This document shows positions 36,091 through 43,457 of a stretch of DNA of 64,000 nt, piece after piece. The translations under genes were made by a program, and so were the position numbers. How positions within the stretch are numbered: position 1 is the stretch's first letter; every line of letters begins with the position of its first letter. The notes below the pieces were generated by a model. That model searched no databases. It was not told where the DNA came from and saw only the letters and a list, made by a program, of their open reading frames with translations. This DNA is from Deltaproteobacteria bacterium. Lineage in GTDB: Bacteria; Myxococcota_A; UBA796; GCA-2862545. The stretch lies in NCBI GenBank assembly GCA_006226595.1, contig SBGP01000107.1:1-64000 (forward strand), in the 5' to 3' direction.

Positions 36091-37041
36091 TCACCTGTCG
36101 AGCGGGTGCCGGATCGTGTCCACCGGCTCGGGTGCCCGGACCGGGCCGGCTCTGACCCCGAGCACGTTGGGGACCGCCCACTGCTCGAGGTTGTCGTCCT
36201 TCTCGTAGAACCCGGTCTCGTAGGAGCCGATCCACACCCGCGTCTGGCGCGCCTCGCGCACGACCAGCGTGGCCTCGGGGCCACCCTCGGCGTACTGCAG
36301 GTTCACGAGGCCGAGGTCGAGGGCCACGAGGTGATCGACGAAGTCGCGGGTCCGGTAGGGCGAGCGCGCGTGGATGAACAGGATGCGGCCCTGGTCGTCC
36401 TCGCCGATCACCGCGTGCGACCACATCTTTGGCTGGTCGGACCACACGTTCTCGCCGGCGCACGACAGCATGCGAATGCCCTGGACCCAGGTCGTGTACT
36501 TCGGCCGCAGCGCGTCGAGGTCATCGCAGCCGAGATCGACGATCTGCGCGTCGTGCAGCGCTTCTTCGCGGGGGCCGAACGCGAGCAGCACCTTGTCGCC
36601 GGTGAGCTCGCCGTTGTTCGTGTGCGCCCCGTCCACCATGAGTGCCGTGTTCGTGCGGTGGTCGGTCTGGAACATGCCGGCGTTGATCGCTGCGACCAGG
36701 TCCTCGTCGATCGCCCACTGCTCGACGCTTCGCGGAGCGCCATCGCGCGAGGCCATGCGCAGCACGAGCTCGGCCCGGCGCGGATCGATACGCACCACGG
36801 TCGCCTGGCTCGCGCCGTGCTCGGAGGCGGGAAGCTGGAACTGCCCGAGCTCGACGCCGTGGGCGATGCCCTCCCAGCCGGCAAGAGGCTTCTCGCCGCT
36901 GTTCGGGTTGGCCACCGGATTCGCGAAGCTCGGCGAGGCGATCGGCAGTGGCGAGGTCTCGGGCTCGGGCTCGACCACCGGTGCCGGTGCTGGCGCGGGG
37001 GCGGGGGAGCTGCAGGCGAACAGCAGGAGGAGCAGGTGCAT
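36091..37041 (-). CDS. Phosphodiester glycosidase-like lipoprotein
   Basis: The 316-residue product has a very short lipoprotein signal (MHLLLLLFAC) followed by a Pro/Ala linker. The body resembles the NAGPA/phosphodiester glycosidase family, with VEQWAIDEDLVAAINAGMF, LMVDGAHTNNGE, LAFGPREEA, TTWVQGIRML and HARSPYRTRDFVDHLVAL. Related proteins cleave N-acetylglucosamine from phosphodiesters on glycans or cell-wall polymers. It would act on the periplasmic or outer face. No clear ribosome binding site precedes the ATG. Divergent from the repeat lipoprotein at 37122. Confidence 0.82.
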   Translation of the reverse strand: MHLLLLLFACSSPAPAPAPAPVVEPEPETSPLPIASPSFANPVANPNSGEKPLAGWEGIAHGVELGQFQLPASEHGASQATVVRIDPRRAELVLRMASRDGAPRSVEQWAIDEDLVAAINAGMFQTDHRTNTALMVDGAHTNNGELTGDKVLLAFGPREEALHDAQIVDLGCDDLDALRPKYTTWVQGIRMLSCAGENVWSDQPKMWSHAVIGEDDQGRILFIHARSPYRTRDFVDHLVALDLGLVNLQYAEGGPEATLVVREARQTRVWIGSYETGFYEKDDNLEQWAVPNVLGVRAGPVRAPEPVDTIRHPLDR

Positions 37042-37121
37042 GGGAACGTGGACGCTTCGGGGAGGGGAGGGTTCCGCGTATCGGACTCGCCGCGCTTCGG
37101 GAAGCAGGGTATCAGCGGCCG

Positions 37122-37832
37122 ATGCGACACCTTATCCTTCTGCTTGCCCTTGCGGCCTGTGCTGGCGGCGACGACCTCACCGAGGACTCGGCCGTCGAGA
37201 CCGACACCGACACCGATACCGATGCCGACGCGGATACCGACACCGACGCGGACACTGATGCGGACGCGGACACCGACGCCGACGCGGACACCGATGCCGA
37301 TGCGGACACCGATGCGGACGCGGACACCGATGCGGACGCGGACACCGATGCCGACGCGGACACCGATGCGGACGCGGACACCGATGCGGATGCGGACACC
37401 GACGCGGACACCGACACCGACACCGATCCGGTTCGCGTCACGGTGTGGCCCGGCGACTACTGCCTCAGCGAGCCGACCCTGCGTCCGGGCGCGTACAGCG
37501 GCACCCTCGCCAGCAACCTCAACGACTTCAGCGCGGTCTGCGGCAGCGCACAGGCGGAGGGGCGTGAGGGCTCGGTGATCGTCGACGTGCCCGCCGGCCA
37601 GACCCTGACCGTCGACTACCGCTCTGTGGGCGCCGATGCCGTGCTGTACTTCCTCGAGACCTGCCCGGTCATGAGCAGCTGCCTCGATCTCGCCGACAAC
37701 ACCGGCGATGGCGGCGTCGAGACCCTGTCTTGGCAGAACACCGGTGGCACCACGGTGTCCGTGCACGTGTTCCTCGACAACTGGAGCTCGCTCAGCGGTG
37801 GCGCCTTCGAGCTCGACATCGACGTGCAGTAG
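37122..37832 (+). CDS. Lipoprotein with Asp-Ala-Asp-Thr repeat linker
   Basis: The 236-residue product starts MRHLILLLALAAC, a lipoprotein signal. A stretch of about 80 residues of D-T/D-A repeats follows, then a domain of about 130 residues beginning VTVWPGDYCLSEP. The domain has GREGSVIVDVPAGQTLTVDY and TCPVMSSCLDLADNT, a beta-sandwich pattern close to bacterial pre-peptidase C-terminal domains. It shares the linker, but not the head, with the lipoproteins at 27668 and 55750. TATCAG ends six bases before the ATG. The apparent selenoprotein gene follows 37 bases downstream. Confidence 0.85.
   Translation: MRHLILLLALAACAGGDDLTEDSAVETDTDTDTDADADTDTDADTDADADTDADADTDADADTDADADTDADADTDADADTDADADTDADADTDADTDTDTDPVRVTVWPGDYCLSEPTLRPGAYSGTLASNLNDFSAVCGSAQAEGREGSVIVDVPAGQTLTVDYRSVGADAVLYFLETCPVMSSCLDLADNTGDGGVETLSWQNTGGTTVSVHVFLDNWSSLSGGAFELDIDVQ
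37198..37428 (+). repeat. Tandem repeat coding the D-A-D-T linker
   Basis: Units of gacaccgatgcggacgcg type repeat in tandem every 18 bases, with GAT/GAC and GCC/GCG interchanges that are silent. It is the longest of three such arrays in the window. The synonymous drift shows the amino acid pattern is under selection while the DNA units diverge. Confidence 0.85.
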
Positions 37833-37869
37833 GTCGCGCATCTCGGGATACGCTGTCTCGGGAGGCTCG

Positions 37870-38262
37870 ATGCACGTTCGCCCAACCGCCGATGGACGCA
37901 GCCTCGTGCTGTGGGATGGCGCCTGAGGCTTCTGACGGCGATTCGCCGCCTGGGTCAGGCACACCGACAGCGCGCAGCGATTCACGCTGGCCCCCTACCA
38001 GGAGGCCTCGGACCCGTGCGTCACCGACGCGCTGCGTGCCGAGGCCGAGAAGGCGCTGCATGTGATCGAGCCCGATGGGCGCGTGATCCGCGGGGGGCGC
38101 GCGGTGCTCCGGGTGTTCGGCGGACTCGGGTGGTGGCCGATCACCACGCCGCTGTCGTGGCCGCCGATGATCTGGTTCGTCGAGCTCGGCTACCGGGTCG
38201 TCGCCAACAACCGGATCCTGTTCTCGAAGTTCTTCTTCCGCACGGATCACGACAAGGACTAG
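37870..38262 (+). CDS. DCC/DUF393 thiol-disulfide oxidoreductase-like protein, apparent UxxU selenoprotein
   Basis: One frame runs from ATG 37870 (behind GGGAGG) to TAG 38262 and encodes 130 residues if two in-frame TGA codons, at 37924-37926 and 37933-37935, are read as amino acids. The flanking sequence is LVLWDGA-TGA-GF-TGA-RRFAAWVRH. DCC-family proteins have D-G-x-C-x-x-C at this exact place, so both TGAs replace the two redox cysteines (residues 19 and 22). The rest is intact and typical of the family: FTLAPYQEAS, HVIEPDGRVIRGGRAVLRVF, and VANNRILFSKFF at the end. The simplest reading is selenocysteine at both positions, giving a U-x-x-U redox motif. A hairpin starts at the first TGA. 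Neither a SelA/SelB gene nor tRNA-Sec is in the window. The alternative is a pseudogene with two nonsense mutations. Confidence 0.75.
37921..37960 (+). promoter_or_regulatory. Candidate bacterial SECIS hairpin
   Basis: GCCTGA at 37921-37926, which contains the first TGA, can pair with TCAGGC at 37955-37960. Inside it CGGCG at 37936-37940 pairs with CGCCG at 37944-37948 around a three-base ATT loop. The apical loop lies about 15 bases after the first TGA and directly follows the second. This matches the general position of bacterial SECIS elements, though the loop lacks the G often seen there. Confidence 0.45.
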
Positions 38263-41227: not shown

Positions 41228-41758
41228 CTACTTCGCTTGCTTCTTGCCCTTGCCCTTGGCGGAGGGCTCGATCTTGTCGAGGGCGTTGCCGTTGATGCAG
41301 TAGCGGAGCCCGGTCGGAGCGGGGCCGTCGCTGAACACGTGGCCGAGGTGGCCGCCGCAGCGGGCGCATGCGACCTCGGTGCGCTTCATGCCGTAGGCGA
41401 AGTCGTCGTGCAGGTCGACGCGGTCCTCGGCGATGGGGGCCCAGTAGCTGGGCCATCCGGTACCGCTGTCGAACTTGGTCTCCGACGAGAACAGCTCGAG
41501 GTCGCAGCCCGCACAGGTGTAGACCCCGGGCTTCTTGTCGTCCCAGAAGTCGCCCGTGAACGCGCGCTCGGTGCCGGCCTTGCGGAGGATGCGGAACTCC
41601 TCTTCGGTGAGCACCGCTCGCCACTCTTCGTCGGTCTTCACCACCCGGTCGTTGCGCGAGGGCTCGGCGGCCTGGCCGCCCTGGGACGCAAAGCTCGCGC
41701 CGAGTCCAGCGAGAAGCAGCGAGCCCGCGGTGAGGGCAGCGAGAGTGAGCTTGGTCAT
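41228..41758 (-). CDS. msrB: Peptide methionine (R)-S-oxide reductase, exported
   Basis: The 176-residue protein starts at ATG 41758 behind AGGAGG. An N-terminal signal (LTLAALTAGSLLLAGLG) places it outside the cytoplasm. The MsrB domain is complete: VYTCAGCDLELF and CARCGGHLGHVF provide the zinc CxxC pairs, SGTGWPSYW is the substrate loop, and the catalytic Cys is in GLRYCINGNAL. It reduces methionine-R-sulfoxide in envelope proteins. The catalytic residue is Cys, not selenocysteine. The tail is Lys-rich (KGKGKKQAK). Confidence 0.96.
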   Translation of the reverse strand: MTKLTLAALTAGSLLLAGLGASFASQGGQAAEPSRNDRVVKTDEEWRAVLTEEEFRILRKAGTERAFTGDFWDDKKPGVYTCAGCDLELFSSETKFDSGTGWPSYWAPIAEDRVDLHDDFAYGMKRTEVACARCGGHLGHVFSDGPAPTGLRYCINGNALDKIEPSAKGKGKKQAK

Positions 41759-41978
41759 GGTGCCTCCTGGGGTTGTGCTCGTGGATACGCCGGGGTCTAC
41801 GAAGTGGTTACCGCGTGAAGCGCTCGCCGCGTCGTCCCGAAGTGTCGCCGCGGGCCCCGACCCGCGACTCACAGGCGCGTGACACGCGATCGGTCGGCTT
41901 GCTCGCCGGTTATGAGGAAGGGGGAGCGGCCCGTGCCCGGGTGAGATATCAGGCGCGCCCAATCCCCGTGGAGGAAGT

Positions 41979-43457
41979 ATGTCCAAGGCTCTCGAGACGC
42001 TGAACGCCATTCGCTCTGCCACCGGGGCTGCCCAGACTACCGGCCTCACGGATGACGTGATCGAGCGCTTCCTCGCCGAGGACCCCGCCCTCGGCCAGGC
42101 GATCGAGGCGGCCGCCGTGGCCTTCGAGCACGTGCGCACCGAGTTCCCCGAGCTGCTCGGCGACGAGGTCGATGCCATCGAGCTCGCCCAGTCCGGCTAC
42201 GTGAACTTCTACAGCGCCGGCGCTGTGAACCCCTACGTCGCGCTTGCCGCCAAGGGCGCGTGGGTCGTGACCCTGCACGGCGCGGTTGTCCACGACAACG
42301 GTGGCTACGGCATGCTCGGCTTCGGTCACAACCCCGACTTCGTGATCGAGGCGATGAGCAAGCCCCAGGTGATGGCGAACATCATGACCGCCAGCGCCGC
42401 CCAGCTCGCGCTCAGCCGCGCGCTTCGCAAGGAGCTCGGCCACGCCCGCACCGATGCACCGTTCCCGAAGGTGCTGTGCATGAACTCGGGCTCGGAGGCG
42501 ATGACCGTCGCCGCCCGCATCGCCGACATCCACTCGAAGAACAACGCCAAGGGCCGCAAGACGACCTTCCTCGGCATCGAGCGCGCCTTCCACGGCCGCA
42601 CCGACCGCCCGGCGCAGCTCTCCGACTCGTCGCTGCCCGTGTACCGCAAGTACTGCAAGAGCTTCGCCGACCGCGACAACCTGTGGACCGTGCCCGCCAA
42701 CGACGTCGCCGCGCTCGAGGCCGCCTTCCAGCGCGCCGCCGACGAGAACGTGTACATCGAGGTCATGTTCATGGAGCCCGTCCAGGGCGAGGGCAGCCCG
42801 GGCATGGCGATGACCCGTGAGTTCTACGACGCCGCGCGTCGCCTCACCCTCGCGCACGACACGCTGTTCGTCGTCGACAGCATCCAGGCGGGCCTGCGCG
42901 CGACCGGTTGCCTGTCGATCGTCGACTACCCGGGCTTCGAGGACTGCGTGCCGCCGGACATGGAGTCCTGGTCCAAGGCTCTCAACGGCGGCCAGTACCC
43001 GCTGTCCGTGCTCGGCCTGTCCGACCGCGCCGTCGCCATCTACCAGCGCGGTGTGTACGGCAACACCATGACCACGAACCCCCGCGCCCTCGACGTCGCG
43101 GTGTCCGTGCTCGATGCCGTGGACGACAGCCTGCGCCAGAACATCCGCCGTCAGGGCAAGGCCTTCATCGCCGACCTCGAGGGTCTGGCCACGGAGTTCC
43201 CCGGCCTGATCACCGAGGTCCAGGGCACCGGCCTGCTGTTCTGCGCCGAGCTCGACCCGGCTCAGGCCACGGTCATCGGACCCGGCTCGGCCGAGGAGCG
43301 CATGCGCCTCCGCGGTGTCGGTGTCATTCACGGCGGTCGCAACGCACTGCGCTTCACCCCGCACTTCCGCATCACCGATGCCGAGCGGGCCCTGGTCATC
43401 GACACGCTCCGCGAGGTCCTCGCCGAGATCCAGGGCGAGGTCCGCAAGGCGGGCTAG
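41979..43457 (+). CDS. Class III PLP-dependent aminotransferase
   Basis: The 492-residue enzyme starts behind GGAGGAAG. It has the class III fold features LCMNSGSEAMTVAARIADIH, FHGRTDRP, EVMFMEPVQGEGS, DTLFVVDSIQAGLRATG and the PLP-binding Lys333 in MESWSKALNGGQYPLS. The Asp in VVDSIQAGLRATG replaces the common D-E-V-Q-T-G signature with D-S-I-Q-A-G, which sets it apart from ornithine and acetylornithine aminotransferases. It probably transfers an amino group from an omega- or lysine-type amine. It stands alone; a GC-rich hairpin follows. Confidence 0.9.
   Translation: MSKALETLNAIRSATGAAQTTGLTDDVIERFLAEDPALGQAIEAAAVAFEHVRTEFPELLGDEVDAIELAQSGYVNFYSAGAVNPYVALAAKGAWVVTLHGAVVHDNGGYGMLGFGHNPDFVIEAMSKPQVMANIMTASAAQLALSRALRKELGHARTDAPFPKVLCMNSGSEAMTVAARIADIHSKNNAKGRKTTFLGIERAFHGRTDRPAQLSDSSLPVYRKYCKSFADRDNLWTVPANDVAALEAAFQRAADENVYIEVMFMEPVQGEGSPGMAMTREFYDAARRLTLAHDTLFVVDSIQAGLRATGCLSIVDYPGFEDCVPPDMESWSKALNGGQYPLSVLGLSDRAVAIYQRGVYGNTMTTNPRALDVAVSVLDAVDDSLRQNIRRQGKAFIADLEGLATEFPGLITEVQGTGLLFCAELDPAQATVIGPGSAEERMRLRGVGVIHGGRNALRFTPHFRITDAERALVIDTLREVLAEIQGEVRKAG

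Follow-up and report, generated by a model that had tools for sequence, protein, structure and literature searches.

The window analysed here, a 64,000-nucleotide stretch of a deltaproteobacterial draft genome (a record of 117 contigs, G000 below), contains on its forward strand a gene, denoted Sec-DCC, that encodes a small protein with in-frame TGA codons at residues 19 and 22 alone (Table 1). With TGA translated as selenocysteine (Sec, U), the product reads MHVRPTADGRSLVLWDGAUGFURRFAAWVRH...FRTDHDKD, and the two TGA codons fall within the motif D-G-A-U-G-F-U-R-R. Translation thus confirms the starting observation of the sequence-only reading, namely, a single frame with TGA exactly at both cysteine codons of the redox motif and nowhere else; the ribosome-binding site noted there corresponds to a ribosome-binding-site-like hexamer ahead of the ATG start. 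TGA serves as an ordinary stop codon for at least four genes neighbouring Sec-DCC. Genes of this type are cut short by standard gene calling, which here yields a 66-residue fragment at best.

Table 1. Features of the Sec-DCC locus (positions in the window)
Feature	Position	Strand	Description	Evidence
Ribosome-binding-site-like GGGAGG	37860..37865	+	4 nt 5' of ATG	sequence
Sec-DCC gene	37870..38262	+	130-residue DCC1-like (PF04134) protein with a predicted thioredoxin fold, WDG-A-U-GF-U-RRFAAWVRH	Pfam, AF2
UGA1	37924..37926	+	predicted Sec19, first position of U-x-x-U	translation, homologue alignment
UGA2	37933..37935	+	predicted Sec22, second position of U-x-x-U	TGA in every Sec homologue
Putative bSECIS apical hairpin	37948..37960	+	GCCUG-GGU-CAGGC, loop 37953-37955, within codons A27-W-V-R-H31	RNAalifold, pair counts, per-sequence folds
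Stop codon of Sec-DCC	38260-38262	+	TAG	translation

The surroundings of the gene give no functional clue: apart from local synteny inside a single genus, the neighbourhoods of the locus have no gene family in common, and the second-largest cluster of neighbours overlaps Sec-DCC on the opposite strand and was taken to be an antisense frame. Upstream in the window lies a gene for a protein with a long TDADAD/TD repeat and no Pfam match (36948-37832, plus strand), a repeat that also keeps long frames open on the complementary strand; upstream of this gene is one for a phosphodiester glycosidase-like protein (PF09992; 36091-37041, minus strand). The minus strand at 41228-42178, about 3 kb from Sec-DCC, encodes a methionine sulfoxide reductase B (PF01641, SelR domain) whose active site, GLRYCINGNAL, is of the Cys type.

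The assignment to the DCC/DUF393 family proposed from the sequence holds: with C in place of U, residues 13-118 of the protein match the DCC1-like family PF04134 (profile positions 1-110 of 113) with an E-value of 9.4e-18 and 65.9 bits, compared to the cut-off of 27.8 bits. All 36 aligned members match the same profile, and no NCBIfam model matches any of the 36. In an AF2 model built from 36 sequences (pLDDT 89.4), a beta strand (residues 11-15) is followed by U-x-x-U opening a helix (residues 20-32); in this model, the beta-loop-helix with the motif at the helix start is the thioredoxin-type arrangement. Sequence comparison detected no close homologue in the PDB, and the best structural matches are to thioredoxin, glutaredoxin and GST folds, all of them weak (Foldseek E >= 0.026, Z < 5).

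A protein search independently recovered the Sec-DCC gene in G000, with two TGA codons inside the match, along with a normal Cys-containing DCC paralogue encoded on a different contig. Among 94 relatives, the search identified two TGA codons at the matching places in 6 further genomes and a single one (C-x-x-U) in a seventh. A profile search extended to 379 genomes of the window's phylum (Myxococcota, going by the record names of relatives) brought the set of protein-found Sec-DCC genes, that of the window included, to 18, of which 15 encode UxxU, 3 encode CxxU and none encodes UxxC. Position 2 is TGA in all Sec genes, and position 1 is Cys in G088, G314 and G123; in one genus, syntenic loci carry either CxxU (three species) or UxxU (one species).

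Outside the phylum, 249 genomes belonging to the class of an Anaerolineae metagenome-assembled genome (MAG) were searched with the profile, which yielded two more UxxU genes (U-S-L-U and U-R-F-U), both with an identical hairpin sequence despite the different residues between the two Sec positions. When 85,000 species genomes were scanned for the pattern, 17 stretches were detected, including ones in MAGs named Armatimonadaceae, Anaerolineae, Actinomycetota and Candidatus Brocadia; misbinning of single contigs is possible for these, and, the hairpin being a requirement of the scan, they were kept out of the hairpin test. The scan contributed 7 additional Sec genes with TGA conserved at the matching codons. 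As far as the records are named, the Sec homologues all come from MAGs.

The in-frame UGA is aligned with the redox cysteines of homologues and is kept across species. Downstream of UGA2, the dN/dS ratio is 0.36 for the same-genus pair G000 and G001 and ranges from 0.1 to 0.5 for other Sec pairs, so that the homologues in sister genomes retain TGA under purifying selection and display no decay. The argument of the sequence-only reading against chance nonsense mutations at both motif cysteines is borne out, and chance is excluded, because another 17 homologues recovered by protein search carry TGA at one or both of these codons; judging by this comparison, the 15 independently sequenced protein-found UxxU genes also exclude a local sequencing error.

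In the phylogenetic tree, the Sec genes and their near Cys homologues form a clade (support 97/94) that excludes the five remaining DCC proteins. The UxxU forms occupy early branches and the Cys forms are nested, which suggests that the latter result from later replacement of Sec by Cys, several inner branches being poorly supported and the sampling having started from Sec forms. Loss of the Sec machinery does not account for the Cys forms, given that tRNA-Sec is kept in most of the Cys genomes.

The sequence-only reading placed a hairpin at the first TGA. This did not hold up: the minimum-energy fold of the stretch that starts at UGA1 is no better than that of shuffled sequences (z 0.49) and is not conserved, and the hairpin that is conserved lies further downstream (Table 1). 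Its stem and loop, GCCTG-GGT-CAGGC, start 12 nt 3' of the second TGA, with the loop 17 nt past UGA2 and 26 nt past UGA1. All 18 Sec genes have the hairpin (with an end mismatch in G319) and none of the 12 Cys homologues does, a complete separation (p about 1e-8, a figure uncorrected for phylogeny). RNAalifold selected this helix unaided and extended it to 7 pairs, three of which show compensatory changes, one among the five innermost pairs and the remaining two in the outer stem.

In nearly all Sec genes, the A-W-V-R codons read GCC TGG GTC AGG C. The loop is GAU or GAC in three of them (G088, G314 and G319), and the protein-found gene of G264 has the stem variant GUCUG/CAGAC, in which the change of GCC to GTC is matched by that of AGG to AGA. 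Of the 18 protein-found Sec genes, 17 have AGG as arginine codon 30 and the remaining one has AGA; elsewhere in these genes, AGG and AGA account for 3.7% and 2.5% of the arginine codons, respectively. Shuffled and slid controls score below the hairpin on almost every measure: the share of paired cells is 95.4%, compared to 91.2 +/- 0.9 after shuffling and 15-41% for the slid helix, and the covariation score is 0.181 versus 0.099 +/- 0.017 in shuffles that do not preserve relatedness, with 7 of the 25 rows contributed by the pattern scan, in which the stem was fixed.

The bSECIS model specifies a loop of 3-9 nt with G in the first two positions and a stem of 4-16 bp located 16-37 nt after the UGA (PMC13188914). 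The Sec-DCC hairpin falls within this geometry for both UGAs, with a GGU loop that starts with G, a stem of 5-7 bp and distances of 17 and 26 nt (PMC13188914). The free energy threshold of the model is <= -7.5 kcal/mol (PMC13188914); 24 of the 25 Sec sequences fold at <= -9.0 kcal/mol over a 32-nt stretch, a value that varies with the stretch folded. The copy in the window is the weakest, at about -7.1 kcal/mol over 32 nt, just short of -7.5, and has the shortest stem, with 5 bp and a weak outer helix. A longer stretch of the window starting from UGA1 folds into a different pairing, and the conserved hairpin is favoured only downstream of UGA2, as on the ribosome. An Rfam scan of the window gave no match at the gathering thresholds.

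The search for the Sec machinery that the sequence-only reading called for found all of it in the genome of the window: SelA, SelB, SelD and a tRNA-Sec with the anticodon UCA. SelD of G000 (L158 535-2715; G000:C1, from 116300) is fused to an N-terminal NAD(P)H-dehydrogenase-like (oxidoreductase-like) domain and is the Cys form, MEMVCGGCAAKVG, in place of Sec; most relatives with Sec-DCC possess a Sec-containing SelD, whose genes mostly carry similar G-containing loops. The same genome encodes a second selenoprotein, the Sec form of the formate dehydrogenase FdhA (Sec-FdhA; L134; G000:C103:175800 onward; CAATUHAPTVAG), with a hairpin whose GGUCU loop lies 18 nt past the UGA. Beyond this genome, tRNA-Sec was identified in all 18 protein-found Sec genomes, SelA in 41 of the 41 genomes tested and SelB in the 8 genomes checked; no tRNA-Sec was found in one pattern-found MAG of 2.6 Mb, which is probably explained by incompleteness. 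Because tRNA-Sec scores over the cut-off in most relatives (66 of 94), its co-occurrence with Sec-DCC is only mildly informative.

Taken together, the conserved UGAs, the covarying hairpin, the machinery and the family membership support the central proposal of the sequence-only reading, that both motif cysteines are replaced by selenocysteine. On this comparative evidence, Sec-DCC is very likely a bacterial DCC1-like selenoprotein with a redox role, in which both active-site cysteines have become Sec and a single hairpin serves both UGAs. SelA and SelD would produce Sec-tRNA(Sec)UCA, and SelB bound to the GGU-loop hairpin would bring it to UGA2 at the canonical spacing of 17 nt; the same hairpin, at the longer spacing of 26 nt, would serve UGA1. 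The product would be a small thioredoxin-fold protein whose first helix opens with a selenol/selenol pair, a diselenide when oxidised, that is probably used for disulfide reduction or isomerisation or for reducing oxidised substrates. We infer Sec insertion, shared use of the hairpin and the redox role from comparison, and the diselenide from the motif.

The alternative that survives best, itself improbable, is that only UGA2 is decoded efficiently as Sec and UGA1 mostly acts as a stop or is decoded inefficiently, making the U-x-x-U form a minor or regulated product. Such a scheme would fit the invariance of UGA2 among the Sec genes next to the occasional Cys at position 1, and only UGA2 has a spacing like that of Sec-FdhA. 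However, UGA1 is retained in 15 of the 18 protein-found genes and in distant phyla, the 26-nt distance lies inside the range of 16-37 nt (PMC13188914), and termination at UGA1 would abolish UGA2, so that full-length product in any amount requires decoding of UGA1. Decoding of UGA as Cys (or Trp), through an opal suppressor tRNA or a reassigned code, is less probable still: some bacteria do have UGA-reading tRNAs besides tRNA-Sec, but this genome possesses the complete Sec machinery with tRNA-Sec(UCA), the bSECIS-like hairpin is confined to the TGA forms, and several other genes in the window use TGA as a stop. A pseudogene or assembly error, with nonsense mutations or miscalls at two Cys codons, might come to mind given that TGA is one base away from TGC and TGT and that the record is a draft, but this least probable reading is already refuted by the conservation of TGA at these two codons across numerous genomes from different families and from other phyla, by purifying selection downstream of the UGAs and by the conserved hairpin.

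With Sec at both positions as the preferred reading, a more specific model appears likely, if less firmly so than the selenoprotein itself: one bSECIS for two UGAs 9 nt apart, with an obligatory Sec at position 2 and a facultative Sec at position 1 that would have been gained or lost independently, in a widespread diselenide redoxin of the DCC family. If one bSECIS serves both UGAs, the interval of three codons is all that SelB has for reloading on that hairpin. The natural UxxU, CxxU and CxxC forms, the first two syntenic within one genus, provide a ready system for asking why both cysteines of a thioredoxin motif are replaced, and the same forms allow one to test whether a single bSECIS decodes two closely spaced UGAs.

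The DCC family (PF04134) is absent from the 119 prokaryotic selenoprotein families in Table 1 of the 2026 catalogue (PMC13188914). Together with the NCBIfam result, this agrees with the initial impression that no diselenide redox site had been described in the family. DCC was not found in the 2008 GOS paper, the 2022 review or the 2025 deep-Sep paper (main text). No publication linking a selenoprotein with the DUF393 or DCC family was found in a search that left most subscription papers and supplements outside, so that an earlier mention is possible. Sec-DCC, which occurs in the window's phylum, among Anaerolineae, and in MAGs bearing the names of Armatimonadota, Actinomycetota and Brocadia, is therefore best read as a new UxxU selenoprotein family with a putative single bSECIS for two UGAs, adding a family with two active-site Sec residues.

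Within PF04134, Sec-DCC shares the D-G-x-C/U-x-x-C/U motif at the N-terminus of helix 1 and differs from the known members in having U-x-x-U in place of Cys-x-x-Cys. SelL is a UxxU selenoprotein. The catalogued UxxU selenoproteins include Prx-like (PF00578), metal-binding/MerA-like (NF041115) and FmdB (TIGR02605) proteins (PMC13188914). These and SelL resemble Sec-DCC in having a redox motif with two Sec spaced by three residues; by Pfam, however, Sec-DCC belongs to a different family, unrelated to peroxiredoxin, mercuric reductase and FmdB. Sec-FdhA is decoded in the same genome with the same SelB and likewise has a GG-containing loop 17-18 nt after the UGA but, unlike Sec-DCC, is a molybdopterin enzyme with a single Sec and a 5-nt loop. 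The UxxU motif as such is already known in other families, and the oddest feature of Sec-DCC is the placement of one hairpin for two UGAs.
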